Below are positions 3,120-23,247 of a DNA stretch of 23,247 nt, one piece after another; within the stretch, counting starts at the first letter, position 1, and each line of letters begins with the position of its first letter. Origin of the DNA: a virus; IMG/VR virus record IMGVR_UViG_3300047359_000272, positions 1 through 23,247 of that record. The stretch is one strand, 5' to 3'. A program made the position numbers and the translations under genes. The notes beneath the pieces are model-generated. The model had not been told where the DNA came from. It ran no database searches and saw only the letters and a program-made list of their open reading frames with translations.

Positions 3120-3488
3120 TTAATAACTCCAAACATGTGGTCTTGGCCTACCTTCAGAGCATTCAAGGTCATCAAGGTGTACAAATCTAGAGCCACCCTT
3201 CTGACTGATACCAATCCCAGTGAAACCTGCCTCTAGAGCGCCCTGTAAAAGCTTGTAAGCAGCTTCACCACGTACCCCTATATCTATGGCCCTCCCTGAA
3301 GCATGTGCTCCCGGAGAGGCTTTACGGGCCTCTATGGGGTGGTCTTTACAACGGTATGCAGAGGTTACAGGAAAGCTAAAGCCAAGCTTCTCACGCAAGG
3401 CATCTACCTTTTTCATGAACTCAGGGTCTATACCCTTGGTTTGGCAGTGTTTACATTCTAATTCTTCTTCTGTAAAATACTTATACAT
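3120..3488 (-). CDS. Endolysin: peptidase M15A-family cell-wall hydrolase
   Basis: Zinc peptidase predicted to cleave the peptide cross-links of peptidoglycan during lysis. The 122-residue protein is essentially a single catalytic domain. It shows SAYRCKDHP, then GAHASGRAIDIG with the zinc ligands His and Asp of the SxxHxxGxAxD pattern, and a final RFVHLDD supplying the third ligand His. The N-terminal ELECKHCQTKG also resembles the start of M15A proteins of phages. There is no signal peptide or membrane anchor, so it should depend on the nearby holin. The start overlaps the giant upstream gene by one base (TAATG). By length it is a compact form of the family. Confidence 0.9.
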   Translation of the reverse strand: MYKYFTEEELECKHCQTKGIDPEFMKKVDALREKLGFSFPVTSAYRCKDHPIEARKASPGAHASGRAIDIGVRGEAAYKLLQGALEAGFTGIGISQKGGSRFVHLDDLECSEGRPRPHVWSY

Positions 3489-6400
3489 TACCTATTTCCA
3501 CGTTTTTGATTCTTATCTATTAAGTCTAATATTCTTTGTTGCTGTACAGGATCAGCTTTTTTAAATGCTGAAAGATTTGTAATTGATTCAGATAATTCAG
3601 ACTTTCTTCGTAACACTGGTAGCTTTTGTGTTATTGCTGGTGTAGAATCTTTACCTGTCTTAAACTTAGCTGTAGTAGCTACACGAGCTTTTTTCTCTTT
3701 AGACTTTTTAGATTTTTGTTTTGGTGGTATATACTCAACTCTATTTTTTACATCAGGTGGAGCTAATGGATTTTTTAATACAAACTCATAAGGAGAATTT
3801 TCATTATCTCTTGTAACTAAAAAATCACCATCTGTTGTAGACATTACAGTTATAGGTCTTCCGTTTTGTTTAGCAGGAAAAACTCTATCTTGTGTTTCTT
3901 TATAAGACTCTAATGAAGGATCTTCTCTTAAACCTACAATACCTAAATCTGGATCATCTACAGTAGATTCTCCTACGCGAGCTTTATCCATTTCTGTTTT
4001 CTTTTCAAACTCAAAATATTGAGAAGGTGTATAAGGTTGTTCTTCAGTAACCACTACTTTATTCATATAATCAATACTTGCATCTTGAGCTTCTTTAACA
4101 CTAGTTACAGGAGGAGATATAGATGCAAAAGCTTGAGCAACAGAATTTCTAATATTATTATCTACTGGGTGATGTAAAAACTCAGCAGGTTTATTAGCTT
4201 GTCTTTCTTTAATAAATGCAGCCATTTCTGTACCTGTTAAAGCTCTAGCTTCTTCCATTTCTCGAAGTTTTAAATCATCGCTAAGATATTTAGAAGCTTG
4301 ACCTTCAAACATTTCAGTCATAAAATAAAGTTGAGGATCTACTAAAGAAGTAAAATCTGAAGCTTGTCTTTTTTCTTCTCTAACCTTTAATTGATTTACT
4401 AAAGAATCATAAAAAGCTTTTTGACCTTCATCATTTAAATTAATTTCACCAGCTAACTTAGCTAATCTTTCTGGTGTAGCTGCTTCAATAGTTAAAATTT
4501 TACTAGGTAAAAATTCAGGAATACCTAAAGCAATACGATTCATTCTATTTTCATACTCTCCATCTGACTCTCCTTTTAATTTATCAGGATATTTAGCATG
4601 AGAGTATTCGTGACGAACTACAAAAGTATTCCAATCTTCTAAACTATCTATTGAGTTTTCAGGTAAAGGCTCAGCCCCCGGCTTCTTTTCTAAAACATCT
4701 TTTCTTATTGATGTCCAAGCTTTTCTATCATAAGCTTCACGCATACGTACAGGATCAATAAATACTGTATCTTGTTTTTTATCATAATAAGCAAAAGCTT
4801 CTTTATTTTTATTAGGCAAAGGGCCATATACTGTTTTTACAGCAGGTAAATCTTCTAAAACATTTTGAGTTGTTATATCTGACGAAGGTAACAATGAAGT
4901 AACTAAATGGTATGGCCCTTTAGCAATATCATTTTTAAATTTTTCATCAGACAGCCCCATACTAAACTTTGTTTCATTAATAAAATCTATTCTGTCTTTT
5001 TCTGAAAACTGAGTATTAATATTAAAGTATGTTTGCTTGTCTAATACAGGAATATTAGAGTTTTCTAAAAACATGGTATCGTCTAATAAGATCCAGTTTT
5101 GTTCCTCTTGCATCATTTCTTTAGTTAAAGAATAATTATCAAGACCTATATATTCTTTTGTAGGTACTTCATATTCTACTAAAGGTTCTTCAGGAAGCTC
5201 GTCTACTTTTAGCTGCATACCTGAAGTACCCTCAACAGGAGCAAGAGCCTCTCTGCTTCCCGGCATAGCTCTTTCGGCTTCTTCTAATACATTTGTAACT
5301 GTAGCCTGTACAGTCTCTCCTGCGGTACGTACAGGAGCTTTACCTCCTATTTTTGTAGACTCTACTGATGCAAACCTTTCAGATAAATCTTTTTTATTTA
5401 CCGGAGCATGTTGAATAGAGTCATATCCTGCTGTTTTAAAAGCATCAATAATTTCTTTTTCAACTAATATAGGATGTAAAGCTATTTGGTCAGGTGAATA
5501 GCCTAAACCTTCTTCAATAGCTAAGGGCAATCTTTCTCTTTCTTTTTGTATTCTTTTTAAACTTTTAGCTAATTCTGCATCTGACTTACCAACCTGAGTA
5601 ATAAAATCTTCTTGATCTAAAAAATTAGTAAGAGAAGTTACCTTAGGTATTTTTCCTGAATACTTAAAAGGATTTAAGGTTCTTATAGTTCCTCTAGGGT
5701 TACTCAAAACAGAAGGGTTTGTTTCAGCTATAGCTAAACCATTAGGATTGACACTAAAGTACACAGGAGTTTTAACTTGAGATTCTCTAACATGAGCATC
5801 TATGCGATCTTTACGATTAGCAGTGCTAAAAAGTTCTTCTGAAGACTCATCTAAGTAAGTAAAAAATTTACTTCCTTGTTTTCTAACTGCTTTAACTATA
5901 CTACCAGCCATAAACTGGCGACGATTATTTAGCAGTTCACCTGACTGCTCTGAGTAAGGCATCCCTGTAGTTCTATCTACACGTTGACTAGGGTTTAAAC
6001 CAGTTCTAGGAACCTCTTGATCAAGCTCACCGCCTTTAAAAAACTGAGAGCGTTGGTAATAAGACCTTTGAGTTTCTAACCAAGCATTTAAAGATTGTTC
6101 TTTTTTAGGTGGCTTTAATCCTACAGCCCTATCTATATCTTTACCAAACTCTTGAATATCTTTTTTTAAGTCTCTATTTTCTTGTAGACTAGGCAATGAT
6201 CTATATAAACTATATCCGGGTACATTGGTAGCTATAAGCTCTCCGGGGCCTTTACGATATATTAAACCATCAATAGCATCGCCTACTATTGGGCCTGTTA
6301 CAGCTTTAACACTAGATCCTAAAAAGCCTCCACCTATTTCAGCGTTTGCTCTAGCTCTTTCTGCATAATCAAAAAAACCTATGCCGCCCCAACGCTGAAC

Positions 6401-9400
6401 AGCTTCCATAATGATTTCATCATTCTCTTGCTCTTCACCTTTATAGTTTTTAAAGTTACCGCCATTTCTAATCCAGTTAGTTCCTGCGGCAGCAGCAGTC
6501 ATCAACAAACCAGTTGATAAAATTTTAGCTCCTCCGCGCATAGGATCTCTAGCTGCTTGACCATAAAAGTTTTTAAGTACTGTATTTGTAAAAGCTGTAG
6601 GGTATCCTAAGAACTGAAACAACACTGTACCCATAGGTGTCTGTTGTACGTGTGGGCGTATAGAAGCAGCTTTAGAAGGATCAAGAATTACTTCATTAGT
6701 AAAACGAGCAGCGCCTCCCATTACTTGCTTTTCGTAAAAACTATCCCATTTACGTAAGCCTGTAATTTCATCTCTTATAATTTTACCGTCTTTATCAAAA
6801 TCAGGAGTGTATGTATTAGCTCCTTTTTGAACCCAACGCTTACCATCTTCTATATTAATACCTAGATCTAAAAGCTCTTGTTCTAAACGATCTACTTTCT
6901 TTTTATTAACGGCATTAGGAGTGGCTTCTAGTGCTACTATTTCTTTTAAATTACGAGTAATTAAATCTTTACCCATAGTAAAAGAAGCAAGCTGAACTGT
7001 ACGAGTCCACTGCTCTAGTAAGTTAACTTTAAAAAAACCATTTTGAATTTTACGGCCTACTACACTTTGTACACCTTCACCAGCTAATCCATCAATACGC
7101 TGAGCTACTGCTTGGTTAATACCTAAAAATACTCTGTGCATTTCTGCAAGAGCATCTTCTTTACTAAGTTTGTGTCTATCCTGTAGTTCTCTAAGGGTGT
7201 TATCACTAGTACGTTGAACAGCAAACTTTAACGTCTGTCCCATGCCTCTAGCCCATGTAGCTGCATTAGTTCTAGTAAGAGGAATAAAAATCTCTGTTAA
7301 ACTTGAAAGCGTAACTAAAGGTAAGTGAGCAAGCTGTTGACTTACTTTAATAAAATCTCCAGCAATGTTTAAACCGTTAGATCCAAAGTTAGATTGATCT
7401 AGACCTGTTGTAAAATTGTACATTTTAGCAAGCTGTTCTTTGTCAGCATTGTTTAAAGTTACGCCTTTCTTTGCTAATTCTTCAGCAGCAGGTTTTATCC
7501 AACGCTGATTAAACTCATTAAGATCAATACCTAATGTAGACTTTCTAGCATACAAGCGCGAGCTTTGATTAAAATAATCACGCATTAAAAGATCAAAGTC
7601 ACTAGCGATAAACTTTTCAATTTCAAAGTCATCTAGCATAAACAATTTTCTAGGACTAAAAGAAGAAGGCATAACTGTGCCTAAAGTTTCAATATCTAAA
7701 GTATTGACTTCATTCTTTTTGCTTAGCATGTCATCAATAATTTGATTAGCTACTTTTGTTTTTTCACCTATTACATCTGCGCTAGGAGGAAGAGTACGTT
7801 CAATCTCTTTCTTTTCTTTAGCAGCCTTTTGCATTAGATTCCCTAACCTAAAAGATGCAGTTGGGTTTTCTAACATAAGGCCATCAACAGATGCAGAAAC
7901 ATTATATTTTCTATTTATACCTTCTACAAAGCTTTCTAAGTCTTCTTTGTTTTTAGAAGGTAGATCAGTTAATATTTCTTCATAAGCATTTGTAAGGTTA
8001 GTAAGCTGCTCATAGCGTCTACGATTAGCTCCTTCAGGAAGTAAAGACAACATAGTTGTATCGTCTAAAGATACAGCATCAGACTTAACCATAATGTCTG
8101 CTAACTCTCTACGGTTGCCTTGTACTTCTTCCCACAACCAACGGCGAGGAAACCAAGAGTTAACACCACCATTTAAAGGTCTACGATAAACTCCTACTTC
8201 TGCTCCATCTTTTAAAACACTATCTGCAAGCTTTCTTACTTTAGCAGCTACTTTATAATGAACATCAGTAGCTCCTTCTACTTGTACTTTAAAATCTTTA
8301 CGTCTCATTAAACGAGAAAGAATTAACTCATCGTCTTTACTAATCTTGCCTTTGGGAGCTAATGGGCGTATAATATCTTCATAGGCTTGATGATATTTAC
8401 CGTTGTAATCACTTAAAGTAGAATGATAGTCACTACCTATAGCAGAAGAACCTTTTCCTTCTTTAAACTTATAAGTATCGTACCTAAATGCTTTAAGCAT
8501 TGTTTGCATTGTTTGAGAGCTTTCAGCTAAAGTTAAAAACCTAGTAACAGGTTTACCTACTGTTTTAGATATAATTGCGTCTTTAGCTTTAGAGGCTTTA
8601 AAACCTAAACTGTTTTCATTAACATAGCTTTCATCTGAAAATTTAACAAGGTTGTAGTGTGCTTCTTTTGAAAATGCAGTAGATACATTAGATAAACCTT
8701 TACCTAATGCTCCGCCTAAAACACCACCAATCAAAGAAGAAGTACCTACATCATATAGATTTAAACCTTCTCTAATATCTATACCGTCTATAGACTCTCT
8801 TTCTTGACGCAAATACTCATCAGCACCTGTCCATAAAGCACCTTCTGCTGCTCCAAACAGTGCAGTATTTTTAGCTTTATCTTTGTAGTATTGTTTAACA
8901 GCTTCTTGCCGTTGCATCTTACCTTTCTTTAACGTAGCTCCCCAATCAAGTTCTCCTGTAGCTTTATATACATCAAAAGAATCTGTATCTTTTCTTGCGT
9001 ATGCAAGGCTTTTATCATTTTTAAACGACTTACCTACTTTCTTTAAACCTAATTTAGCAGCTTGAGCTAGTCCTTTATTTGCAAAAAGACCTGTGGCACT
9101 TGCTCCTCCAGTAAAAGGTGCAGCAATAACTGCTGCTAAACTCACAGGGTCAGTAGCTAAATCTACACCTGCGTCAGCTATAAACCCTAAATACTGTTTA
9201 AAGCCTCCCATATCTGCATTATCAAATCTTTGGCGCAGGTAAGTATAGTCCTTCTTTTGTTGATCTGTAAAAGAAGGAATATCTAATAAACTACGTTTAG
9301 CACTTGCACCTAAGTTCCAATCTTCATCACGTAAGTACTCATAGACATCATCTACAGCTTTGTCATCTTCTCCAATACTACTTAAAAATCTTTCAGCTAC

Positions 9401-9514
9401 TTTAATATAGCTGTCATCATTTTCTAAAGTATCTAGAGTGTCTTTAGATCTTACAGATGCTCGAACTTTTGAAGGCGTGTAACCAAGACCGTATTGTTGA
9501 GTTGCTTTGCTCAA
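3488..9514 (-). CDS. Giant internal virion/ejection protein with ART-like and zincin-like domains
   Basis: A 2008-residue protein placed like the largest ejection protein of T7-like phages (gp16 position: after the smaller internal proteins). Residues 1 to about 1200 look virion-structural: small-residue/glycine-zipper segments near 255-275 (SSLIGGVLGGALGKGLS), long charged helices and a hydrophobic segment near 1000 (STGLLMTAAAAGTNWI). Residues about 1235-1395 resemble ADP-ribosyltransferases of polyvalent proteins, and about 1570-1670 a zincin metallopeptidase with H1635-E-Y-S-H1639. The C-terminus is basic (KQKSKKSKEKKAR). No ATG is available near the start: the first codon is TTG, with AAGAGG 8 bases upstream, directly after the in-frame TAA of the preceding gene. 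The far 3' part is very AT-rich. The protein likely enters the cell with the DNA; the enzymatic roles are inferred. Confidence 0.82.
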   Translation of the reverse strand: MSKATQQYGLGYTPSKVRASVRSKDTLDTLENDDSYIKVAERFLSSIGEDDKAVDDVYEYLRDEDWNLGASAKRSLLDIPSFTDQQKKDYTYLRQRFDNADMGGFKQYLGFIADAGVDLATDPVSLAAVIAAPFTGGASATGLFANKGLAQAAKLGLKKVGKSFKNDKSLAYARKDTDSFDVYKATGELDWGATLKKGKMQRQEAVKQYYKDKAKNTALFGAAEGALWTGADEYLRQERESIDGIDIREGLNLYDVGTSSLIGGVLGGALGKGLSNVSTAFSKEAHYNLVKFSDESYVNENSLGFKASKAKDAIISKTVGKPVTRFLTLAESSQTMQTMLKAFRYDTYKFKEGKGSSAIGSDYHSTLSDYNGKYHQAYEDIIRPLAPKGKISKDDELILSRLMRRKDFKVQVEGATDVHYKVAAKVRKLADSVLKDGAEVGVYRRPLNGGVNSWFPRRWLWEEVQGNRRELADIMVKSDAVSLDDTTMLSLLPEGANRRRYEQLTNLTNAYEEILTDLPSKNKEDLESFVEGINRKYNVSASVDGLMLENPTASFRLGNLMQKAAKEKKEIERTLPPSADVIGEKTKVANQIIDDMLSKKNEVNTLDIETLGTVMPSSFSPRKLFMLDDFEIEKFIASDFDLLMRDYFNQSSRLYARKSTLGIDLNEFNQRWIKPAAEELAKKGVTLNNADKEQLAKMYNFTTGLDQSNFGSNGLNIAGDFIKVSQQLAHLPLVTLSSLTEIFIPLTRTNAATWARGMGQTLKFAVQRTSDNTLRELQDRHKLSKEDALAEMHRVFLGINQAVAQRIDGLAGEGVQSVVGRKIQNGFFKVNLLEQWTRTVQLASFTMGKDLITRNLKEIVALEATPNAVNKKKVDRLEQELLDLGINIEDGKRWVQKGANTYTPDFDKDGKIIRDEITGLRKWDSFYEKQVMGGAARFTNEVILDPSKAASIRPHVQQTPMGTVLFQFLGYPTAFTNTVLKNFYGQAARDPMRGGAKILSTGLLMTAAAAGTNWIRNGGNFKNYKGEEQENDEIIMEAVQRWGGIGFFDYAERARANAEIGGGFLGSSVKAVTGPIVGDAIDGLIYRKGPGELIATNVPGYSLYRSLPSLQENRDLKKDIQEFGKDIDRAVGLKPPKKEQSLNAWLETQRSYYQRSQFFKGGELDQEVPRTGLNPSQRVDRTTGMPYSEQSGELLNNRRQFMAGSIVKAVRKQGSKFFTYLDESSEELFSTANRKDRIDAHVRESQVKTPVYFSVNPNGLAIAETNPSVLSNPRGTIRTLNPFKYSGKIPKVTSLTNFLDQEDFITQVGKSDAELAKSLKRIQKERERLPLAIEEGLGYSPDQIALHPILVEKEIIDAFKTAGYDSIQHAPVNKKDLSERFASVESTKIGGKAPVRTAGETVQATVTNVLEEAERAMPGSREALAPVEGTSGMQLKVDELPEEPLVEYEVPTKEYIGLDNYSLTKEMMQEEQNWILLDDTMFLENSNIPVLDKQTYFNINTQFSEKDRIDFINETKFSMGLSDEKFKNDIAKGPYHLVTSLLPSSDITTQNVLEDLPAVKTVYGPLPNKNKEAFAYYDKKQDTVFIDPVRMREAYDRKAWTSIRKDVLEKKPGAEPLPENSIDSLEDWNTFVVRHEYSHAKYPDKLKGESDGEYENRMNRIALGIPEFLPSKILTIEAATPERLAKLAGEINLNDEGQKAFYDSLVNQLKVREEKRQASDFTSLVDPQLYFMTEMFEGQASKYLSDDLKLREMEEARALTGTEMAAFIKERQANKPAEFLHHPVDNNIRNSVAQAFASISPPVTSVKEAQDASIDYMNKVVVTEEQPYTPSQYFEFEKKTEMDKARVGESTVDDPDLGIVGLREDPSLESYKETQDRVFPAKQNGRPITVMSTTDGDFLVTRDNENSPYEFVLKNPLAPPDVKNRVEYIPPKQKSKKSKEKKARVATTAKFKTGKDSTPAITQKLPVLRRKSELSESITNLSAFKKADPVQQQRILDLIDKNQKRGNR
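4505..4807 (-). other. Zincin-like metallopeptidase region (HEYSH) inside the giant ejection protein
   Basis: Codes for residues about 1570-1670. The HExxH zinc motif is HEYSH at residues 1635-1639 (bases 4598-4612), followed by glutamates at 1649, 1653 and 1655 and the helix YENRMNRIALGI, which could supply the third ligand. Upstream, FAYYDKKQDTVFIDPVRM and LEDWNTFVVRHEYSH follow the usual strand-then-helix order of phage polyvalent-protein peptidases. Likely activity is zinc-dependent proteolysis, either of virion or of host proteins. Confidence 0.65.
5330..5812 (-). other. ADP-ribosyltransferase-like region inside the giant ejection protein
   Basis: Codes for residues about 1235-1395. The order of short blocks fits ART folds seen in phage polyvalent proteins: PVYFSVNPNGLAIAET (Val1251 onward), then GTIRTLNPFKYSGKIP, then DAFKTAGYDSIQHAPV (Gly1363-Tyr1364-Asp1365) and RFASVESTKIGG. 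These correspond to the family's F-S-x-NP, NP-and-strand, K-x-AGYDGI and final strand. I cannot point to an unambiguous catalytic triad, so this is a fold-level guess. Confidence 0.45.
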
Positions 9515-11902
9515 TTAGTTATCCTCTTGTGCTGCTGCTCTTTTACGCAATTCTGCCATAACTTTTTCATATTCAGGATGATCTGGACGATACTTTGCTA
9601 TATCATTTAAAACTTTTGTAGTGGCTTGAACTACTCCTTTAATACCTTCTACAATAGGAATTGGAGCAGCTTCAAATTCTGAAGCAGGAATTCTAGAAGC
9701 AGTTAAAGCACGACGAGCTTCATCTGGTGTTATTGCACTTGTTGATTTTTCACTTTCAGCCATTCTTAATCGAAATGCTTTAAGTCTTTTAGCTAAACTA
9801 AAATTACCTTCTGCTCCAGCCTTATTAACTTTTTCTTCAATAGTTTCGTCAGTATCTGTAGCTTCCACAACTTGAGAAGCTTCTTTAAATATCAAATGAC
9901 GTTTATACATAGAATTAGCTACTTCCTCTAAAGAAGTAGGAACACGCACTGAAGTTATTTTTGTTTCAGGATCATACTCTGAAAAATCTTGTACTAAAGC
10001 AGCAGTTATTGTGTTTCTAATTGCAGTAGGATCTTGTAAAACATCGCCATGAAAAAATCCAGGTTGTTTTCCTTTGTAAAAAGCTTCTTCATTTACTCTT
10101 AAAACTTCTTCTGCATAATATCTAAATATTGATATATTAGAAGAATTTAAACCTGCTGCTTTTCTTTTAGGATCTGAGTATACTGTAGGGCCTAAATATG
10201 TTAAGTAGGAGTTTAATTTCTCTTCAGTCACCTCACCAAAAACATTAGTTATTTCAGATTTTTCAGGGCTTTGTAAGGCATCACCTATAAGAGTTCTAAC
10301 ATCGGAAGTAGCATTTTGAAAACTTCTATTTAAAATTGCATCAGACACTTTATTTAAAGGAGTAACAGTAACAGCTAAAGCAGCCATACGATTTGCTGTA
10401 GCTTCATCTATATTAGGATTATTAGCTATTTGATAACTAACATTTTGCATTAAATAAGGAACACTTGCTGCAGTTTCTGGGTTTGTTTGATTTACTGCTT
10501 GAGTATAAAAATTAGCAACACGCGCATCTCCTTCATTTATATCACGTTGATTTAAAGCATCCTCAACAAATTTATTTGCTAAAGCTGTGGGAGTGTCTAT
10601 ATTTTCTATACTTGTTTGAAACACAACTTGTTGAGTTTTTAAATTTTGTAAACGTGTTTGTTCATTAGGAGTTAAACTTTCGTTTGATTGTTTAGCTATT
10701 AAAGGAGCCATTTGATCAGTTATAGAACTAAGACTTCTTTTATAACCTAATAAAACATTTACTTTATCAGTAGACAAAGTACTATATTGTTCTTTTAAGC
10801 CATCATAAAAAGAACTTACTTTAGCCCTTTGTTGAATTTTTTGTTCTTCTGTTAAATTTGTATTAGCATTAATTCTTTTTCTTGCTTGGCTTTCTTCAAT
10901 TGTAAAACGAGTAGTAGCTGCTGTTCGTCCCATTCCTCCAAAAACAACATCATTAAAAGCATTTTGAAACTCTACATTTCCCATATTAGGATTACTGTGC
11001 ATAAGTTTTTGTAAAGCTTCAGTAGCTTCTGCTTTTAAACCCGGAGCTAATTGAGTAAGTACCCCAGCATCTTCTTGAGGCAAGGATGCCCAAATACCAA
11101 AATCAGTATCTTTAACTGCTTCATAATATTCTTCAGGAGTAGTAGACCCTGTCCAAGCTTCCATAGCTTCTACACCTTTTTTAACTTCAGCAGTTAAATA
11201 ACGATTACGAAAAGCTGCTATTTGTTCTTGTTGATAATCTAACTTACGTGCTAGTTTACCTCCTATCTTACTCATTAATCCATAATTATCAGGATCAATA
11301 CTAATACCCATGTTTTCTAAACTTCTAAGATTTGTTTGAAATTTTTCAAAATCAAAAGCTTGTCCTGAACGAACATAATTTACTTTGTCCATAACAACAC
11401 TGTTATAAAGATTTTCTACAGCCTCATGATTTTCATCGGACATACCCCAAGTATTTCTTTGTGCTTCATAGTCTTCATAACTTTTAAAAGAAGCTCTAGG
11501 AAGTAAATTAGGAAACTGACTTACAACAGTTCCCCAAGCTTGTTCGCCAAAAACTTTACGAGCAGCTTGAAGGTTTTGTTGAGTTCCTTTAGATGAATCA
11601 TCAAATTGATAACCATTATTTACTAAACTTTCATACTGTCCTGAAGTTTCTTTATTACGTTTAATTTGATTAGTAGCATCTGCACGAAGCTTTGCTAACT
11701 CTAAATTATTTTCAAAGTTAGCATTATCCATTTTTTCACGTAGCTTATAAGTCTGGTAATTATCTGTAATACCTATTAAAGTATCTATAATACGTCCACT
11801 ATTGCGCTTTAAAAAACTAGGTCTTTTTCTACGAGTTTGTCCACGTATTTGATCGACAACAGAGCCATAATCAAAATTTGAAATATCTGGTCTTTTAGCC
11901 AT
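9515..11902 (-). CDS. Internal virion/ejection protein candidate (795 aa)
   Basis: A large soluble, predominantly helical protein placed immediately before the giant ejection gene. In position and length it resembles the middle internal protein of T7-like phages (gp15, about 750 residues). It has a basic N-terminus (QTRRKRPSFLKRNSGR), a long Asn/Gln/Glu/Ala-rich helical body and a charged C-terminus. No enzymatic motif or membrane segment is recognised. Its ATG overlaps the upstream stop as TAATG. Its own stop is a single TAA, and the next gene continues in the same reading frame with TTG, so low-level readthrough would create a fusion of about 2800 residues. Assignment rests on context, not on motifs. 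Confidence 0.72.
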   Translation of the reverse strand: MAKRPDISNFDYGSVVDQIRGQTRRKRPSFLKRNSGRIIDTLIGITDNYQTYKLREKMDNANFENNLELAKLRADATNQIKRNKETSGQYESLVNNGYQFDDSSKGTQQNLQAARKVFGEQAWGTVVSQFPNLLPRASFKSYEDYEAQRNTWGMSDENHEAVENLYNSVVMDKVNYVRSGQAFDFEKFQTNLRSLENMGISIDPDNYGLMSKIGGKLARKLDYQQEQIAAFRNRYLTAEVKKGVEAMEAWTGSTTPEEYYEAVKDTDFGIWASLPQEDAGVLTQLAPGLKAEATEALQKLMHSNPNMGNVEFQNAFNDVVFGGMGRTAATTRFTIEESQARKRINANTNLTEEQKIQQRAKVSSFYDGLKEQYSTLSTDKVNVLLGYKRSLSSITDQMAPLIAKQSNESLTPNEQTRLQNLKTQQVVFQTSIENIDTPTALANKFVEDALNQRDINEGDARVANFYTQAVNQTNPETAASVPYLMQNVSYQIANNPNIDEATANRMAALAVTVTPLNKVSDAILNRSFQNATSDVRTLIGDALQSPEKSEITNVFGEVTEEKLNSYLTYLGPTVYSDPKRKAAGLNSSNISIFRYYAEEVLRVNEEAFYKGKQPGFFHGDVLQDPTAIRNTITAALVQDFSEYDPETKITSVRVPTSLEEVANSMYKRHLIFKEASQVVEATDTDETIEEKVNKAGAEGNFSLAKRLKAFRLRMAESEKSTSAITPDEARRALTASRIPASEFEAAPIPIVEGIKGVVQATTKVLNDIAKYRPDHPEYEKVMAELRKRAAAQEDN
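9523..9528 (-). promoter_or_regulatory. Ribosome binding site deciding the TTG start of the giant gene
   Basis: On the minus strand this reads AAGAGG, 8 bases before the TTG at 9514-9512. It lies inside the last codons of the preceding gene. The first in-frame ATG is about 100 codons later, so this site is the main support for starting at TTG. Confidence 0.65.
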
Positions 11903-17170: not shown

Positions 17171-17374
17171 TTAAGATCCTAAAATTGGACGAGTGTTTGG
17201 GAAGTTTTCTGTACTGGGCCAGTCACGCAAAGCCTGACGGTAAGCCAACACTGCTTCAGCATTAGGGTAATCAGAAACTGTAGCGGCTATGTCTGTTCGC
17301 TGTAGTTCAGCGTCACGCCAGCGTCTAGCCTTCACTTCAGGAGAGATCGTTTCTTCTGCTATTATTAAAGCCAT
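17171..17374 (-). CDS. Tail assembly chaperone-like protein (67 aa), second copy
   Basis: A 67-residue protein carrying the signature of the phage tail-assembly-chaperone family (Phage_tail_APC from memory): RRWRDAELQRTD, then EAVLAYRQALRDWPS and FPNTRPILGS. In this family the short domain is often found next to tail-fibre genes and is thought to help fibre folding or attachment. It directly follows the propeller-like fibre gene, with a TAATG one-base overlap, and is a paralogue of the 98-aa protein two genes upstream (18638-18934), with which it shares YRQALRDWPS. It lacks the N-terminal 30 residues of that copy. It is the last gene before the operon's intergenic promoter. Confidence 0.82.
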   Translation of the reverse strand: MALIIAEETISPEVKARRWRDAELQRTDIAATVSDYPNAEAVLAYRQALRDWPSTENFPNTRPILGS

Positions 17375-18252
17375 TATTTCACCCTCATATAAACAGTTCC
17401 GCCTAGTTCTACGCCATTGTCTGATTGGCTTGATGTAATCTTATGAATTCCTGTCGCCGGAGAAAATTTATTTACGGAGTCTGTGGAAAGATTAGTTACC
17501 CAAAAATTAGTACCATCCCAAGCTACATCATGTGGGGTTGTAAAGTCAGGTCGTACACTAAAAGACCCCAAATTAACCCCTGCTGTGCTGTATTTATAAA
17601 CTGCGTCAGCGCCATTCGCGAGCACCCAAAAGTAAGTCCCGTCCCAAGTAATTCCTGTCCAAGAGTAACTTTCGTTAGCCACAGAAAAAGACTCATTTTG
17701 ATAAACCCCTGATGAGTTGTATTTATAAACTGCGTCAGTAGTGTCGCCAAGAACCCAGAAATGAGTTCCGTCCCAAGTAATTCCTGTGGGGACTGTGTCT
17801 TGGCTCCCTACAGAGAAAGATACGTTTTGATAAACGCCGCTTGTACTCCACTTGGTTACATCGTCTCCAGTAGAACCAACAACCCAAAGGTAGCTTCCGT
17901 CCCAAGTTATACCCTGTGGTGCGCCTTCTTCGGAAGCCACTGAAAAGCTACTTTGCTCCACCCCTGCCGTGTTGTACTGACGAACTGTGTCAGTATCAAT
18001 CCCAACCATCCAAAAGGAAGTGCCGTCCCAAGTAAGTCCGTAGGGGTTATTTTCACCTGTTGTTGGAAAGCTTGTACCAGAAAAAACGAAAGTACTGGAT
18101 GCATCTGGGTAAACGGATAAATCATCCTCAAAAACACCCGCCTTTAAGTACACCCTACCGTCAGCCAACGTGACAACATTTTCAGCCCTGTTTAATATAA
18201 CAACTTCATTTACCTGTGATGCGCTACCGCCACCACCTAAACTAATAGCCAT
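17374..18252 (-). CDS. Propeller-like tail fibre/receptor-binding protein (292 aa)
   Basis: A short N-terminal handle (LGGGGSASQVNE) leads to five repeats of 42-43 residues, each with a conserved GITWDGTYFWV-type strand. The Trp of this strand is at residues 75, 117, 160, 203 and 245. Each repeat continues with a DAVYKYSTAGV-type strand and an SFSV strand, the four-strand pattern of NHL/SMP-30-like beta-propeller blades. The ends (DGRVYLKAGV near the start, LGGTVYMRVK at the end) may close the ring with a sixth blade. A surface-exposed sugar- or receptor-binding role at the tail tip is inferred from this and from the fibre cassette around it. The start directly abuts the upstream TAA, and GGAGG lies 8 bases upstream. 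Confidence 0.8.
   Translation of the reverse strand: MAISLGGGGSASQVNEVVILNRAENVVTLADGRVYLKAGVFEDDLSVYPDASSTFVFSGTSFPTTGENNPYGLTWDGTSFWMVGIDTDTVRQYNTAGVEQSSFSVASEEGAPQGITWDGSYLWVVGSTGDDVTKWSTSGVYQNVSFSVGSQDTVPTGITWDGTHFWVLGDTTDAVYKYNSSGVYQNESFSVANESYSWTGITWDGTYFWVLANGADAVYKYSTAGVNLGSFSVRPDFTTPHDVAWDGTNFWVTNLSTDSVNKFSPATGIHKITSSQSDNGVELGGTVYMRVK
17458..18057 (-). repeat. Five ~128-base repeats coding propeller-like blades
   Basis: Codes for about residues 66-265 of the 292-aa fibre. On the + strand the most conserved piece is CCGTCCCAAGT, present near 17638, 17768, 17898 and 18022, with a divergent copy near 17514. DNA-level similarity between copies makes copy-number change by recombination possible. 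Confidence 0.85.
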
Positions 18253-18636
18253 TTATAGCTCCTCCCATCCAATTGTTGCATCAACATAAACCAAAGAAGC
18301 TCCAGCATCTGCTGCTAACTCGCCATCGTCTGCCGTTGAATTTATTTTTGAGCCGTTACGAGCTACAGTAACTGTGCCGGTTCCAGCGTTCTTAATGAAT
18401 ACTACATCACCAGCACTAGGGCTTGCGGGTAGCGTGATTGTTACTGCACTGCTTGAGTTGACAATAAGTTGATCACGCGCAACGGCTGTATAGTTTCCTG
18501 TTTTAATAGCAAAGTTATTAAACGCTCCACCAGCACCTACTGCAAGCTTTGCAGATGTTATGGCACCGTCAGCGATTGCAGAAGCTGTAATGGCATTATC
18601 AGCAATACCAGTAGCTTTAATTTTTGTTGTAGCCAT
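18253..18636 (-). CDS. Short tail-fibre protein, stand-alone paralogue of the large fibre's tip (127 aa)
   Basis: The protein begins with a handle (MATTKIKATGIAD) and then decapeptide repeats (NAITASAIAD, GAITSAKLAV), followed by a compact beta domain: YTAVARDQLIVNSSS, VTITLPASPSAGDVVFI and TVARNGSKIN, ending LVYVDATIGWEEL. The same order, decapeptide repeats then TITLPASP then GRNGSNI then NSTVGWAMA, forms the C-terminus of the 854-aa fibre (19757-22321). The two are therefore paralogues, and this gene looks like a detached fibre tip. It likely forms a trimeric fibre piece. A good ribosome site (AGGAG) is present, and it lies 1 base from the upstream gene and abuts the downstream one. Confidence 0.82.
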   Translation of the reverse strand: MATTKIKATGIADNAITASAIADGAITSAKLAVGAGGAFNNFAIKTGNYTAVARDQLIVNSSSAVTITLPASPSAGDVVFIKNAGTGTVTVARNGSKINSTADDGELAADAGASLVYVDATIGWEEL

Positions 18637-18637
18637 T

Positions 18638-18934
18638 TTACGCTCCTAGTTCTGGGCGAGTAGCTGGGAAGTCTGACGTGCTAGGCCAATCCCGTAGTGC
18701 CTGACGATACGTTAAGATGTTATCTCTGTTAGGCCAGTCTGGGGTTTGTGCTGCTTTGTCTGTAACAGCTAACTCCATATCACGCCACATGCGACCAGCT
18801 TCTTCTGCTGTAGGTTCTGGAGGCGTAGGTTCAACGCACACTTCATAGTGGTCAAAGTTAGCTTCAACAAAGTCAGCGTCAGCAATGATGGTATTTGTGA
18901 TGTTACCGTCAGCATCTTTAATATTATATTTCAC
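18638..18934 (-). CDS. Tail assembly chaperone-like protein (98 aa), first copy
   Basis: The N-terminal part (YNIKDADGNITNTIIADADF, then FDHYEVCVEPTPPEPT) resembles the small beta-rich leader found in front of many phage chaperone domains. Residues about 43-98 hold the APC-type domain: GRMWRDMELAVTD, DNILTYRQALRDWPS, FPATRPELGA. The start codon is GTG with a perfect AAGGAG 6 bases upstream; no ATG is available. It lies between the Gly-rich adhesin and the short fibre. Its paralogue at 17171-17374 has kept only the C-terminal domain. Probable role is folding or attachment of the neighbouring fibres. Confidence 0.82.
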   Translation of the reverse strand: MKYNIKDADGNITNTIIADADFVEANFDHYEVCVEPTPPEPTAEEAGRMWRDMELAVTDKAAQTPDWPNRDNILTYRQALRDWPSTSDFPATRPELGA

Positions 18935-18944
18935 TTAAATCTCC

Positions 18945-19760
18945 TTACGGTATGTACTGGATGACAACACAACCTTCACCACCACGCCCTGAACGAATGT
19001 ATGAGCTGCCTATGGTGGAACAACCCCAACCACCCCCGCCGCCTATTGTTGCGTGGCAAGTGAGGGGAGAATAAGGCTGTTCAGTATACATCGCCCCTGC
19101 TCCTGCTAACGGCCCCGCCTTCGCATCTCCTATTGCATTGTCATAAGTTACATCTAAAACCGCCGTCGCAGACCCAAGACTGCCAGATATTTGACCTAAA
19201 CTAGAGGAATAGAAATCACCTACTATGTCACAGTCACCACCAAGACCATTAAGTTCGGCGTTAGAAGTTGTGCCGTCATTACCCGTCCCTAATAAACCAA
19301 CAGCGCCACCCCCTTTATCATGGCCGCCGCGTCCACCTGTAGTATTGAAGTCTCCGTTTGATCCTACGCCGCCGTTAGTAAAGGCTGTGCTTGATAAAGT
19401 TCCTCCGGCTCCACCAGTAGCCGTTAATGTGGCGCCTAGTCCTGTACCTGAAACGGTTGTAGTGCCTCCATTTGCACCATTACCTCTTGATCCATCCTGA
19501 AACGCTCCACCTGCACCAATAACAACAGTGAATGAGCCAGAAGTAGTAACGGCTAAAGAGTCCTTTCTGCAATAACCTCCTGCCCCACCGCTTTGTAATT
19601 CGGTGAGATTATAACTTCCAGAGCCACTACCGCCAGCACCAATAACGTGGATCATTATATTGCCGTCTTGAGGCGGAACCCATGTCTGTGACTTGTGTAA
19701 AAAGATTGTAGGGAATGACGCAGAGCCGCCACCGCTAATGAAATCTGTAAAGTTGCTCAT
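18945..19760 (-). CDS. Glycine-rich tail fibre adhesin (271 aa)
   Basis: A tail-tip protein of the glycine-rich type. The N-terminus SNFTDFISGGGSASFPTIF shares GGGSAS with the propeller fibre and is followed by SQTWVPPQDGNIMIHVIGAG, the typical first strands of the glycine-rich domain. It then has many Gly-rich turns (GGAGGYC, IGAGGAFQDG, GGRGGHDKGGGAVG, IGGGGGWG) and ends RGGEGCVVIQYIP. Gly-rich segments of this kind form polyglycine helices in T4-like adhesins and carry variable receptor-binding loops. I choose the ATG at 19760 because it overlaps the upstream stop as ATGA; an ATG at 19772 would add four residues. It probably contacts the host receptor. Confidence 0.82.
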   Translation of the reverse strand: MSNFTDFISGGGSASFPTIFLHKSQTWVPPQDGNIMIHVIGAGGSGSGSYNLTELQSGGAGGYCRKDSLAVTTSGSFTVVIGAGGAFQDGSRGNGANGGTTTVSGTGLGATLTATGGAGGTLSSTAFTNGGVGSNGDFNTTGGRGGHDKGGGAVGLLGTGNDGTTSNAELNGLGGDCDIVGDFYSSSLGQISGSLGSATAVLDVTYDNAIGDAKAGPLAGAGAMYTEQPYSPLTCHATIGGGGGWGCSTIGSSYIRSGRGGEGCVVIQYIP

Positions 19761-22321
19761 GCCATTGCCCATCCTACTGTAGAGTTTGTATAAATAAATT
19801 GAATTGAAAGATATTCTTTATCTAGTGTCATATCAGTACCACTAGACATAATGTTACTTCCATTACGTCCAACTACTGTGTCTGTAAAGTTTCCAACTGT
19901 AATTAACACTCTTTGACCAATTGTAGGTGACGCAGGTAATGTAATAGTTTGACCAGCAGTATCCACATATACATGTGTGTTGGCTGTAGCTGTTATGCTT
20001 GAACTGGTGACTACTGAGGTTATACCAACTGTTACAGGCTCAGAAGCAATCTTAGCTGCTGTTACAGCATCATCTACTATAGAATCTGTAACTACTGCAC
20101 TAGAGGCAAGTTTAGCTGCTGTCACGGCATCATCAACAATAGAAGCTGTAACTACTGCACTTGTAGCTAACTGGTCAGCACCTACAGCATCGTCTGCAAT
20201 CTTAGCTTGTGTAACTGCATCGCCTGCTAATTTAGCTGTAGTAACCGTACCATCGCCCGGAGTTGTTGAAGCAGCAACAGTAGAAATAATAATAACTTCA
20301 ACAGCAACGCCTGAAGCCGGAGCAGTGCTAAAAGTAAGCGTAGTTCCGCTAAAGCTAAAAGTATCTTTATGCTGATATACACCATCAAAATAAACTTGAA
20401 TAGAGTTTTCAGAAGCAGGTGTAACAGACATGGTGAGCGTTGTGTCGCTTCCATCCCCTGTCATGGTGTCTAGCGTGAACTGAGCCTCACCGCCTCCAAT
20501 GTCTCCCCAAGAAGTAGTGTAACCTTCAAACTTTCCAGTTGTACTGTTATATCTAAACTGTCCTGCTGAAGCCGTAGGACGCTGTGCTGTAGTACCAACA
20601 GGGAGTTTTAAAGCTCCTGTCGTACCCATTGTAGTAGTAATTGCTGTAGCGTGATTACCCATATAATCATGTGAGCTACACTGATAATATAAAATATTAG
20701 GCGTATCAGACGTTACAGCTATTGTAGTATGAGCACCGGCACTTCCGGGAGTTCCTGAAGTTGTTACACCAGCTGTGTACGCCGAAGTCTTAGCTGCGTC
20801 ATAGTAGAAACGTAAGGGATGTCCAGTGTTTGAAGAATCAGATTGATCAAACTTATAGTAATATTCACTAGAACTTGTAACGCTATCTACACCCAGTAAA
20901 GATAATGCTGGAGACTCTTCATCATTTAAAAAATATGCACTGCTAGAACCATCACCATTATAAGGATGTGATGAAGTTTTTGAAGCTACTGTAACTGTAA
21001 ACACTACAGGGCTTGAAGCACTACCATAATCTCTTGTCACGATAGAACCAGTAACTTGAGAGTCTACATAAGCTTTAACAGACTGTTGAGTAGGCACAAG
21101 TGTTGCACTATTAGAAGACATAGTATCTTCATCTACGAATGCAGTTACATTGATTGAACCATCGTTAAGACTTCCAAAAGTTAAGTTTGTAATGGCAACA
21201 GCATCAATTGTGCCACCTTCTACTTTATTACCAGAAATCTGATTGTCTGCAAGTGTAAGAGTACCTCCTGAGACATCTAAAGCATTACCAGATCCTACAG
21301 TAATATTAGCACCATCTACAGTGCCTCCATTAATATCTGGATTTGTTAAAGTCTTGTTAGTAAAAGTTTCACCACCTGCAAGCGTAGCTACAGTGCTGTC
21401 AATTGCAAAAGTTACTGTATTACCTGAACCAGACGTATTAATACCTGTACCGCCTGTGAAGGTCATAGCTTCGCTGTCAAGGTCAATGCTTAAAGCACCA
21501 CCAGAGTCTGCACTGAAGTCCAAGTCCTGTGCAGTTACTTGAGCGTCTACATAAGCCTTAATAGACTGCTGCGTAGCTAAAGACGTATTACTATTAGAAG
21601 TTAAATCATCTTCATCAAGAATAGAGGTTACTGTAGTACCACTGTTTAATACAAGGCTGTCAAGATTAGCAGTACCATTAATGTATAAGTCTTTCCACTC
21701 AGCCCCTGTAGCACCTAAGTCATGAGTATTATCCGCACTAGGAAGCAAGTCAGAAGCTACATCAGCACTAAAAGATACTGTATCTGTAGCAGCATCACCA
21801 AAAGTTAAGTTACCTGCAATGGTTGCGTTGCCAGTTACTGTAAGATTACCGCCTACACTTAGATTATTAGAAAGCGTTGTAACGCCTGTGACACCTAAAG
21901 TACCTGCAACTGTAGCATTTACATCTACATCTAAAGTATCTACATGTGCTGTGCCATCTAAAAATAAATCTTTAAACTCTAAAGAAGATGTGCCTAAATC
22001 AATATCATTGTTTGTTACAGGTACAATAGCACCATCTTGAATACGAATCTGCTCTACAGCAGCACTAGAAACTTCTACATAAAAACCAAGACGATTGTTT
22101 GTTCCGTCTACTTCAATCTTGTTAAGAAAATCAAGATCACCAATTTTAAAAATATTACCGCCCTGACCAGCAGTACCATCGTGTCTGTGGCCTGTGCTTA
22201 CTGCACTGCTAGAAGAGTAAGCAAAAGAGTTTACTAATTGGTTATATTCGTTATTAAATAACGATGCTGATATAGTATCTCCATCAGCGAATGTACTTTG
22301 TCTGGTATAGCTCTGAGCCAT
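19757..22321 (-). CDS. Large tail fibre with cupredoxin-like module (854 aa)
   Basis: Domain order: an N-terminal virion-anchoring part (FADGDTISASLFNNEYNQLV, HRHDGTAGQGGN); fibre shaft repeats with two copies of a DLG-x-EF/WKDLF/YLDGTA block and hexapeptide-like GNLTVTGNATIAGNLTFGD; two copies of QQSIKAYVDAQVT-type helices; a cupredoxin-like module (about 439-565) with H501, C548, H551 and M554; a short GALKLPVGTTAQRPTASAG linker region common in phage fibres; seven decapeptide repeats (691-760); and a tip domain (TITLPASP, GRNGSNI, NSTVGWAMA). Two tandem stops (TAA TAG) of the previous gene precede the ATG in the same frame, and AAGGAG lies 7 bases upstream. A receptor-binding role is inferred from family and context. 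Confidence 0.87.
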   Translation of the reverse strand: MAQSYTRQSTFADGDTISASLFNNEYNQLVNSFAYSSSSAVSTGHRHDGTAGQGGNIFKIGDLDFLNKIEVDGTNNRLGFYVEVSSAAVEQIRIQDGAIVPVTNNDIDLGTSSLEFKDLFLDGTAHVDTLDVDVNATVAGTLGVTGVTTLSNNLSVGGNLTVTGNATIAGNLTFGDAATDTVSFSADVASDLLPSADNTHDLGATGAEWKDLYINGTANLDSLVLNSGTTVTSILDEDDLTSNSNTSLATQQSIKAYVDAQVTAQDLDFSADSGGALSIDLDSEAMTFTGGTGINTSGSGNTVTFAIDSTVATLAGGETFTNKTLTNPDINGGTVDGANITVGSGNALDVSGGTLTLADNQISGNKVEGGTIDAVAITNLTFGSLNDGSINVTAFVDEDTMSSNSATLVPTQQSVKAYVDSQVTGSIVTRDYGSASSPVVFTVTVASKTSSHPYNGDGSSSAYFLNDEESPALSLLGVDSVTSSSEYYYKFDQSDSSNTGHPLRFYYDAAKTSAYTAGVTTSGTPGSAGAHTTIAVTSDTPNILYYQCSSHDYMGNHATAITTTMGTTGALKLPVGTTAQRPTASAGQFRYNSTTGKFEGYTTSWGDIGGGEAQFTLDTMTGDGSDTTLTMSVTPASENSIQVYFDGVYQHKDTFSFSGTTLTFSTAPASGVAVEVIIISTVAASTTPGDGTVTTAKLAGDAVTQAKIADDAVGADQLATSAVVTASIVDDAVTAAKLASSAVVTDSIVDDAVTAAKIASEPVTVGITSVVTSSSITATANTHVYVDTAGQTITLPASPTIGQRVLITVGNFTDTVVGRNGSNIMSSGTDMTLDKEYLSIQFIYTNSTVGWAMA
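20042..20251 (-). repeat. Seven decapeptide repeats, including a near-identical 60-base duplication
   Basis: Codes for residues 691-760 of the large fibre: units such as GTVTTAKLAG, DAVTQAKIAD, SAVVTASIVD, DAVTAAKLAS. Bases 20042-20101 and 20102-20161 are a tandem 60-base direct repeat (two units each) with only a few differences, so this part has duplicated recently. Similar units occur in the 127-aa fibre. Confidence 0.88.
20627..21007 (-). other. Cupredoxin-like (type-1 copper) module inside the large fibre
   Basis: Codes for residues about 439-565. Key elements are GHPLRFYYD with H501, and YYQCSSHDYMGNH with C548, H551 and M554, separated by beta-rich sequence (TTSGTPGSAGAHTTIAV). The His-to-Cys distance of 47 equals that in plastocyanin (His37, Cys84), and C-x2-H-x2-M is the ligand spacing of amicyanin (values from memory). 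Copper binding is inferred. Confidence 0.55.
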
Positions 22322-22324
22322 CTA

Positions 22325-23247
22325 TTATCTCCTTCCTGATGGAGTGTAGTCTATATAAAGACCATTCACTGTATATGGCGATTTTTGATCTGAACTTGTT
22401 ACAATAAAACTTACAGTATGCCCACTGCCTTGAACTGTTTGGCGTACTAGAGGATCTGCTGGAGCACCAAATACATTGGCTCCAAATATGCCTGACCCAA
22501 GAATACTAGGCAGAGGAATAGTATCTAATATATAATCTAAAGGTTGTGAAATTAAAGGATCTTCATAATCATAACGTACACGTAATGTAGGCTGGATAGC
22601 CCCTTCAGGACTTATAGACAACCGTACATAACGTAAAGTCTTTTTAGTGCCTACATCACCAAAGTCTAAATTAGGTGTCTGATAAGCTGCTCTAATGTCA
22701 GCAGGATTACCACCATAATCAAAAGAAATACCATCATCATGATTGTAGATATAGCCGTCACTATCTCCATGCCACGTTTGTTCAATACCATCTATGTCTA
22801 AATCCGATGTTAAAGCAGTAGCTTTGATACCTTCAGTTTCTGAATACTGAAAACCTTCATTCGTTAATGTAGCGATAACACCTTTAGCAGCAGCATTGGT
22901 TGTACCATCTGTATTATAAAATAATCTATATTGTGATTTACTTCTAAGTACAGCACTTGTGATATCTAAGTTATCAATGTTAGCCGCAATACTTTTAATT
23001 GTAGGCTGAATAGGTCTACTTACAGTTCCTAATTCAACGTCACCAATTCGTACCGTACCTGCAACGGTTCTAAGACCGTCAGGACTCAAGAATAACAAGT
23101 CACCTGCAATTTCTTGAATACTCTGGGCATCCATACAACCTACGTTTTTTGTAACTGGTTGTACTACAATATTATTAGAATCATTAATGTTAAGAAGTTT
23201 AAAAATACTATTCTTACAAAAGATAATAAGGTCACTACGGAAACTAG
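22325..23247 (-). CDS. Tail-tube/nozzle-type virion structural protein, 5' partial
   Basis: The frame stays open to the right window edge, so the ATG at 23134 is internal and at least 37 more residues precede it (FRSDLIIFCKNSIFKLLN, then VVQPVTKNVGCMDAQSIQEI). The sequence DLLFLSPDGLRTVAGT with DVELGT and the beta-rich remainder (SQYRLFYNTDG, YIYNHDDGISFDYGGNP, LRYVRLSISPEG) fit beta-propeller-type tail proteins of podoviruses in the tail tubular protein B (T7 gp12) position: immediately before the main tail fibre. The D-x-L-I-x-F-...-S-I-x-K and GDLLFLSPDG patterns are recognised from other marine phages. The exact T7 equivalent is an inference from gene order. Confidence 0.78.
   Translation of the reverse strand, partial: SFRSDLIIFCKNSIFKLLNINDSNNIVVQPVTKNVGCMDAQSIQEIAGDLLFLSPDGLRTVAGTVRIGDVELGTVSRPIQPTIKSIAANIDNLDITSAVLRSKSQYRLFYNTDGTTNAAAKGVIATLTNEGFQYSETEGIKATALTSDLDIDGIEQTWHGDSDGYIYNHDDGISFDYGGNPADIRAAYQTPNLDFGDVGTKKTLRYVRLSISPEGAIQPTLRVRYDYEDPLISQPLDYILDTIPLPSILGSGIFGANVFGAPADPLVRQTVQGSGHTVSFIVTSSDQKSPYTVNGLYIDYTPSGRR

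Follow-up and report, generated by a model that had tools for sequence, protein, structure and literature searches.

An exchangeable tail with a predicted zincin-like module and a putative degenerate ART-like domain on the gp16-position protein of a marine podovirus

Results

The sequence analysed, here referred to as the window, is the whole 23.2 kb stretch of DNA of a virus record, which represents a fragment of a phage genome (Table 1). At its left end lies the gene for a ribonucleotide reductase beta subunit (PF00268), with 68.5% identity to that of Pelagibacter phage HTVC115P, and positions 22325-23245 encode a tail or stabilisation protein that is 39-43% identical to those of HMO-2011-type phages. 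On the strength of these two genes and of the HTVC115P and HMO-2011 counterparts of the giant gene (see below), the window is, as judged from its sequence, part of an HMO-2011-like marine podovirus. Its giant gene is a single open frame of the minus strand (9514..3488), which starts with TTG and encodes 2008 amino acids; the original prediction of such a protein was real and its coordinates right. Within a virion module, this gene adjoins a gp15-like gene, both here and in HTVC115P. In the latter phage, a 1893-aa 'hypothetical protein' is encoded at the equivalent location, behind the gp15-position gene, and the giant gene is syntenic with HTVC115P gp40; the HMO-2011 counterpart is shorter, namely, 1128 aa. 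A family search with the gp15-position protein of the window gave no significant match.

Table 1. Position of the features of the giant protein and of its adjoining genes in the window.
Feature	Residues	Positions	Strand	Basis
Separate M15-type peptidase endolysin, just downstream of the giant gene		3120..3488	-	PF08291, 3.2e-14
Remaining C-terminal region, basic end	1669-2008	3491..4510	-	Conserved in five relatives
Zincin-like metallopeptidase module	1557-1668	4511..4846	-	pLDDT mostly 65-90; Foldseek; exchange/deletion in relatives
Candidate third-ligand helix (ESDGEYENRMNRIAL)	1649-1663	4526..4570	-	Predicted helix; E1649, E1653 and E1655 covary with HExxH
HEYSH motif	1635-1639	4598..4612	-	Computed position; on predicted helix
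Last strand of ART-like domain (NWILLDDTMF)	1473-1482	5069..5098	-	Aligned to YILFDNNQF; Asp position kept
Insert in ART-like domain	1374-1472	5099..5395	-	Gap versus second ART-like family; low model confidence
ART-like domain, main part, probably non-catalytic	1248-1373	5396..5773	-	hhalign E 1.3e-5; pLDDT 65-89
Hinge (NPSQRVDRTTGMPYSEQ..), where the shared region ends and the cargo slot begins	1174-1192	5939..5995	-	Motif conserved among relatives with unrelated tails
Conserved body, internal-virion/ejection-protein type	1-1194	5933..9514	-	PHROG matches, ~80 viral contigs
795-aa protein in gp15 position, adjoining the giant gene		9515..11902	-	Gene order only

Other genes of the window deserve a brief mention. 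A paralogous pair of small genes (17171-17374 and 18638-18934), matching Phage_tail_APC, a tail assembly chaperone (E 2.7e-11 and 1e-8, respectively), flanks tail-fibre-type genes. The products of 18253-18636, which has a weak Phage_depo_C match, and of 19757-22321 end in similar beta-sandwich-like tips (TITLPASP..VTVARNGSKI and TITLPASP..TVVGRNGSNI), which suggests duplication of a fibre tip domain. Also among the tail genes, 17374-18252 encodes WDGTxFWVxG-type repeats, beta-propeller-like by eye, with no match in a Pfam search at 0.05. Three small, very basic, lysine-rich proteins are encoded within 1080-2108 (1080-1403, 1400-1654 and 1911-2108); they too gave no Pfam match at 0.05, and they could possibly be DNA-binding or packaged.

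The N-terminal body of the giant protein is common to about 80 viral contigs. Its residues 589-1080 match PHROG 7348 (6e-58) and residues 644-989 match PHROG 6958, a virion structural family (1.5e-16), while the body of one relative has a distant, low-identity match to LUZ24-type particle proteins. The body profile found no phage protein in the PDB and no sequence link to T7 gp16, and tblastn of the whole giant protein against isolated phages found nothing. The proposal that about 1200 structural-looking residues precede enzyme-like domains is borne out by these virion families, as a giant body of virion type is followed by domains of polyvalent type. From homology and gene order, we infer that the giant protein is an internal, ejected protein.

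The shared region ends at a hinge with the motif NPxxRxDxxTGxPY, at about residue 1174, and at or near this point the proteins of the relatives diverge completely. When relatives were grouped at 90% body identity, the tails behind the hinge ranged from 4 to 991 aa across the 39 groups. They contain lysozyme, glucosaminidase, SLT, ART-PolyVal of the canonical H-Y-D kind, unidentified domains, or nothing, many relatives having no tail at all. Specifically, Phage_lysozyme was detected in the tails of L009 and L032, Phage_lysozyme2 in L055, Glucosaminidase in L011 and L046, SLT in L053, and ART-PolyVal in 10 of 48 tails (E<0.01; L035 exceeds the curated cut-off), frequencies that are indicative only, because the relatives are mostly metagenomic contigs and were retrieved by body patterns. 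Moreover, near-identical bodies bear different tails, as in L077 and L079 (99.7% body identity) and in L045 and L049 (97.5%). Judged by these comparisons, the C-terminus after the hinge (from about residue 1190) is a hypervariable, exchangeable cargo slot, which is the main point that the original prediction had missed.

Some of the tails of relatives are remarkable in themselves. The 991-aa tail of L035 (9298-12345) has a canonical ART, which scores above the Pfam cut-off, along with another, divergent ART-like domain; its third domain resembles, by eye, a stretch of HTVC115P gp40. In L086 (10241-11920), the tail has an ART-PolyVal match (1.4e-6) and, behind it, a segment that by eye resembles ParB (KHEGRHRAALIEAEG). 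The long tails of L023-L028 share a conserved HIDEMQSDL motif, with an HEFRH segment in L027 and L028, and had no Pfam matches above chance. The HEFRH region of L027 was considered as kin of the zincin-like module of the window and rejected, their relation not being demonstrable (hhalign E 0.028, prob 1.8%).

The HEYSH motif of the window lies exactly where it was first placed, at residues 1635-1639. When the last ~800 residues are shuffled, HExxH is found in 0.6% of the shuffles, so that the motif by itself is no more than a mild surprise. What lends it weight is that its putative ligands are kept or lost together and that the predicted structure matches minimal zincins. First, a comparison of the ligand positions, covering six phages, showed that H1635, H1639, E1649, E1653 and E1655 are all present in the window, L005 and L022, and all replaced in L004 and L098, where E1636 stays. 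In a relative of 80% identity, L002/L003, the module is cleanly absent; this counts as one deletion event, because L002 and L003, with a single base difference over 13 kb, are two assemblies of one virus. Second, a model of the tail built from 15 alignment rows, with pLDDT mostly 65-90 for residues 1559-1665, consists in this region of strands, the HEYSH-bearing helix and then a second helix with Glu. The best Foldseek matches in the PDB were abylysin (prob 0.82, E 0.11), deuterolysin (0.51, 0.28) and selecase, none of them significant at 0.001, and the viral matches included IrrE-like and SprT-like proteins, the strongest being unnamed giant phage proteins. These matches were assigned to the HEYSH module by inference, because the output gives no matched residues.

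In searches at the sequence level, the window tail had no metallopeptidase match in Pfam and only chance matches in the PDB, and residues 1669-2008 had no Pfam match. An initial model of the tail (839 aa, 6 rows), with a pLDDT of 41, was of insufficient quality, and its Foldseek list was noise. Structure prediction for the tail, compared with known folds, yielded modest zincin-like matches but no ART fold. The predicted arrangement of beta-sheet, HEYSH helix and Glu helix, together with the minimal-zincin matches, supports the zincin-like assignment made originally, and the module is probably an active minimal zincin metallopeptidase.

The module also stands out in how it varies. L005 and L098 share 98% identity at residues 601-1194 and 45% in the zincin module, while the window and L005 share 67.5% in the zincin module and 35-48% elsewhere in the tail; in those phages that have HExxH, no other part of the tail is as well conserved as the module. 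Such a pattern of identities is consistent with an exchange of alleles within the tail. We did not rely on dN/dS, as the synonymous sites compared here are nearly saturated.

The second enzyme-like region, originally placed at residues 1235-1395, proved to be more distant from known ARTs. Alignment by hhalign of the ART-like family of the window with a second ART-like family (L035, L038, L019 and others) gave an E of 1.3e-5 and prob of 81%; when rows were added, only the YDSI segment remained aligned (E 4.2e-5, prob 70%). Members of this second family match ART-PolyVal weakly (0.0063, 0.012, 0.036, 0.1 and 0.11), and the family is faintly linked to canonical ART tails (E 0.016), to which no direct profile link was found from the window region. 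The two families share the elements GTIRTLNPF, AGYDSIQ and NWILLDDTMF, the last of which lies behind an insert of ~100 aa, so that the original range misses the last strand. A profile search with the ART segment gave this weak, distant homology and no Pfam match, the window tail as a whole had no ART match in Pfam, and the Foldseek lists for the tail model contained no ART fold, despite a confident model at residues 1248-1373.

Polyvalent ARTs have been described as having a His-Tyr-Asp triad (PMC5512222), and these three residues are kept in all ten canonical ART tails of the sister proteins. The window family is without the 14-residue strand-1 segment that contains the His and without the strand-2 Tyr, and keeps the strand-5 Asp. 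We therefore regard the domain as probably non-catalytic, because its strand-1 and strand-2 catalytic positions are absent, and consider it moderately likely that residues 1248-1482 are a degenerate, distant ART-like domain. What stands of the ART-like assignment is the distant profile homology, but not a Pfam match, an ART fold or the catalytic His and Tyr; the lack of these two positions tells against the ADP-ribosylating activity that had been proposed.

Discussion

The giant protein shares traits with several known systems. Like polyvalent proteins (PMC5512222), it is one multidomain phage protein with metallopeptidase-like and ART-like domains, its relatives add lysozymes, and its gene lies among late virion genes. 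It differs from them in that its domains match no published Pfam models, its body is of the gp16 position and not N4 RNAP, MuF or DarB, and its tail, which has two enzyme-like domains in one polypeptide, one of them degenerate, is swapped whole, beyond a hinge. Like gp16-like ejection proteins (T7 gp16, LUZ24; PMC8954989), it is the largest internal-type protein and is encoded beside a gp15-position gene, and the body of a relative is distantly homologous to LUZ24-type particle proteins; unlike them, it is extended at the C-terminus by about 800 residues, which include enzyme-like domains, and it has no sequence link to T7 gp16. With minimal zincins (abylysin, selecase) and deuterolysin, the module shares the predicted beta strands, HExxH helix and following Glu-bearing helix, but it has no sequence match, its scores are modest, and it forms part of a 2008-aa phage protein. 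MuF polymorphic toxins of temperate phages (PMC12226406) are alike in outline, with a constant virion-associated N-terminus and a variable C-terminal enzyme, but given the different body family and the lack of a MuF domain, this is a resemblance only.

Starting from what the tools returned, namely, a body family, a hinge, swapped tails, a zincin motif whose ligands covary, a zincin-like predicted fold and the loss of the ART catalytic positions, we propose a gp16-position ejection protein with a replaceable, delivered tail, which contains a probably non-catalytic ART-like domain and a probably active minimal zincin. We lean towards this explanation, on balance. The giant protein would be the gp16-position internal virion protein of an HMO-2011-like marine podovirus, and the tail after the hinge would travel in the capsid and be ejected together with the genome, reaching the periplasm or the cytoplasm early in entry. 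T7 gp16-C has been placed in the cytoplasm (PMC8954989), and the same topology is assumed here. After delivery, the zincin would act by cutting one or a few host proteins.

Alternatively, the zincin may be a self-processing protease that releases the domains of the giant protein by cleaving it, either within the procapsid or following entry, as Iyer et al. proposed for the metallopeptidase domains of polyvalent proteins, including the N4-like virion RNAP (PMC5512222). This is unlikely: self-processing by the zincin cannot be a general requirement, because the module is deleted in the 80%-identical phage and all ligands are lost in two others that keep the rest of the tail. It is quite unlikely that the tail opens the cell wall, with the zincin as a peptidoglycan peptidase for entry, given the separate M15 endolysin gene next to the giant gene, fold matches that are protein-cleaving minimal zincins, and the many tailless relatives; a wall role would nevertheless be in keeping with the peptidoglycan enzymes (lysozyme, glucosaminidase and SLT domains) that relatives have in this slot. 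The tail could also be structural filler, its HExxH being due to chance or decayed, and the degenerate and deleted alleles, the lost catalytic positions of the ART-like part and the 0.6% of shuffles would agree with this; we hold it to be very unlikely, as the ligands change in concert, the module is better conserved than any other tail part among HExxH carriers, and its predicted fold matches zincins. Finally, the injection of an active protease together with an active ART, as originally envisaged, is hardly credible despite the canonical H-Y-D ART tails at the same position in sister proteins and the precedent of T4 Alt, a known injected ART (PMC5512222), since the window family has neither the 14-residue strand-1 segment nor the strand-2 Tyr and no ART fold is found in the Foldseek lists.

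Polyvalent proteins with these domains, as well as mosaic ejection proteins, have been published (PMC5512222, PMC8954989), and the case of the window is a polyvalent-type tail on a gp16-position protein. In the literature searched, which left most subscription journals outside, we found no description, for this protein family, of a hypervariable tail anchored at a hinge. It is tempting to speculate, though we would not yet call it probable, that in marine podoviruses the gp16-position C-terminus is a polymorphic effector slot, in which near-identical phages exchange cargo downstream of a fixed hinge, and which delivers peptidases, ARTs, wall hydrolases and other enzymes before phage gene expression. 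The slot offers a direct route to new effectors, by comparing the sequence past the hinge in near-identical phages, and the active, dead and deleted zincin alleles provide natural controls for the purpose of the peptidase. If the effector-slot reading is true, these alleles would stem from an arms race between phages and host defences; and if the tails are delivered, a widespread lineage of marine phages carries interchangeable first-contact effectors.
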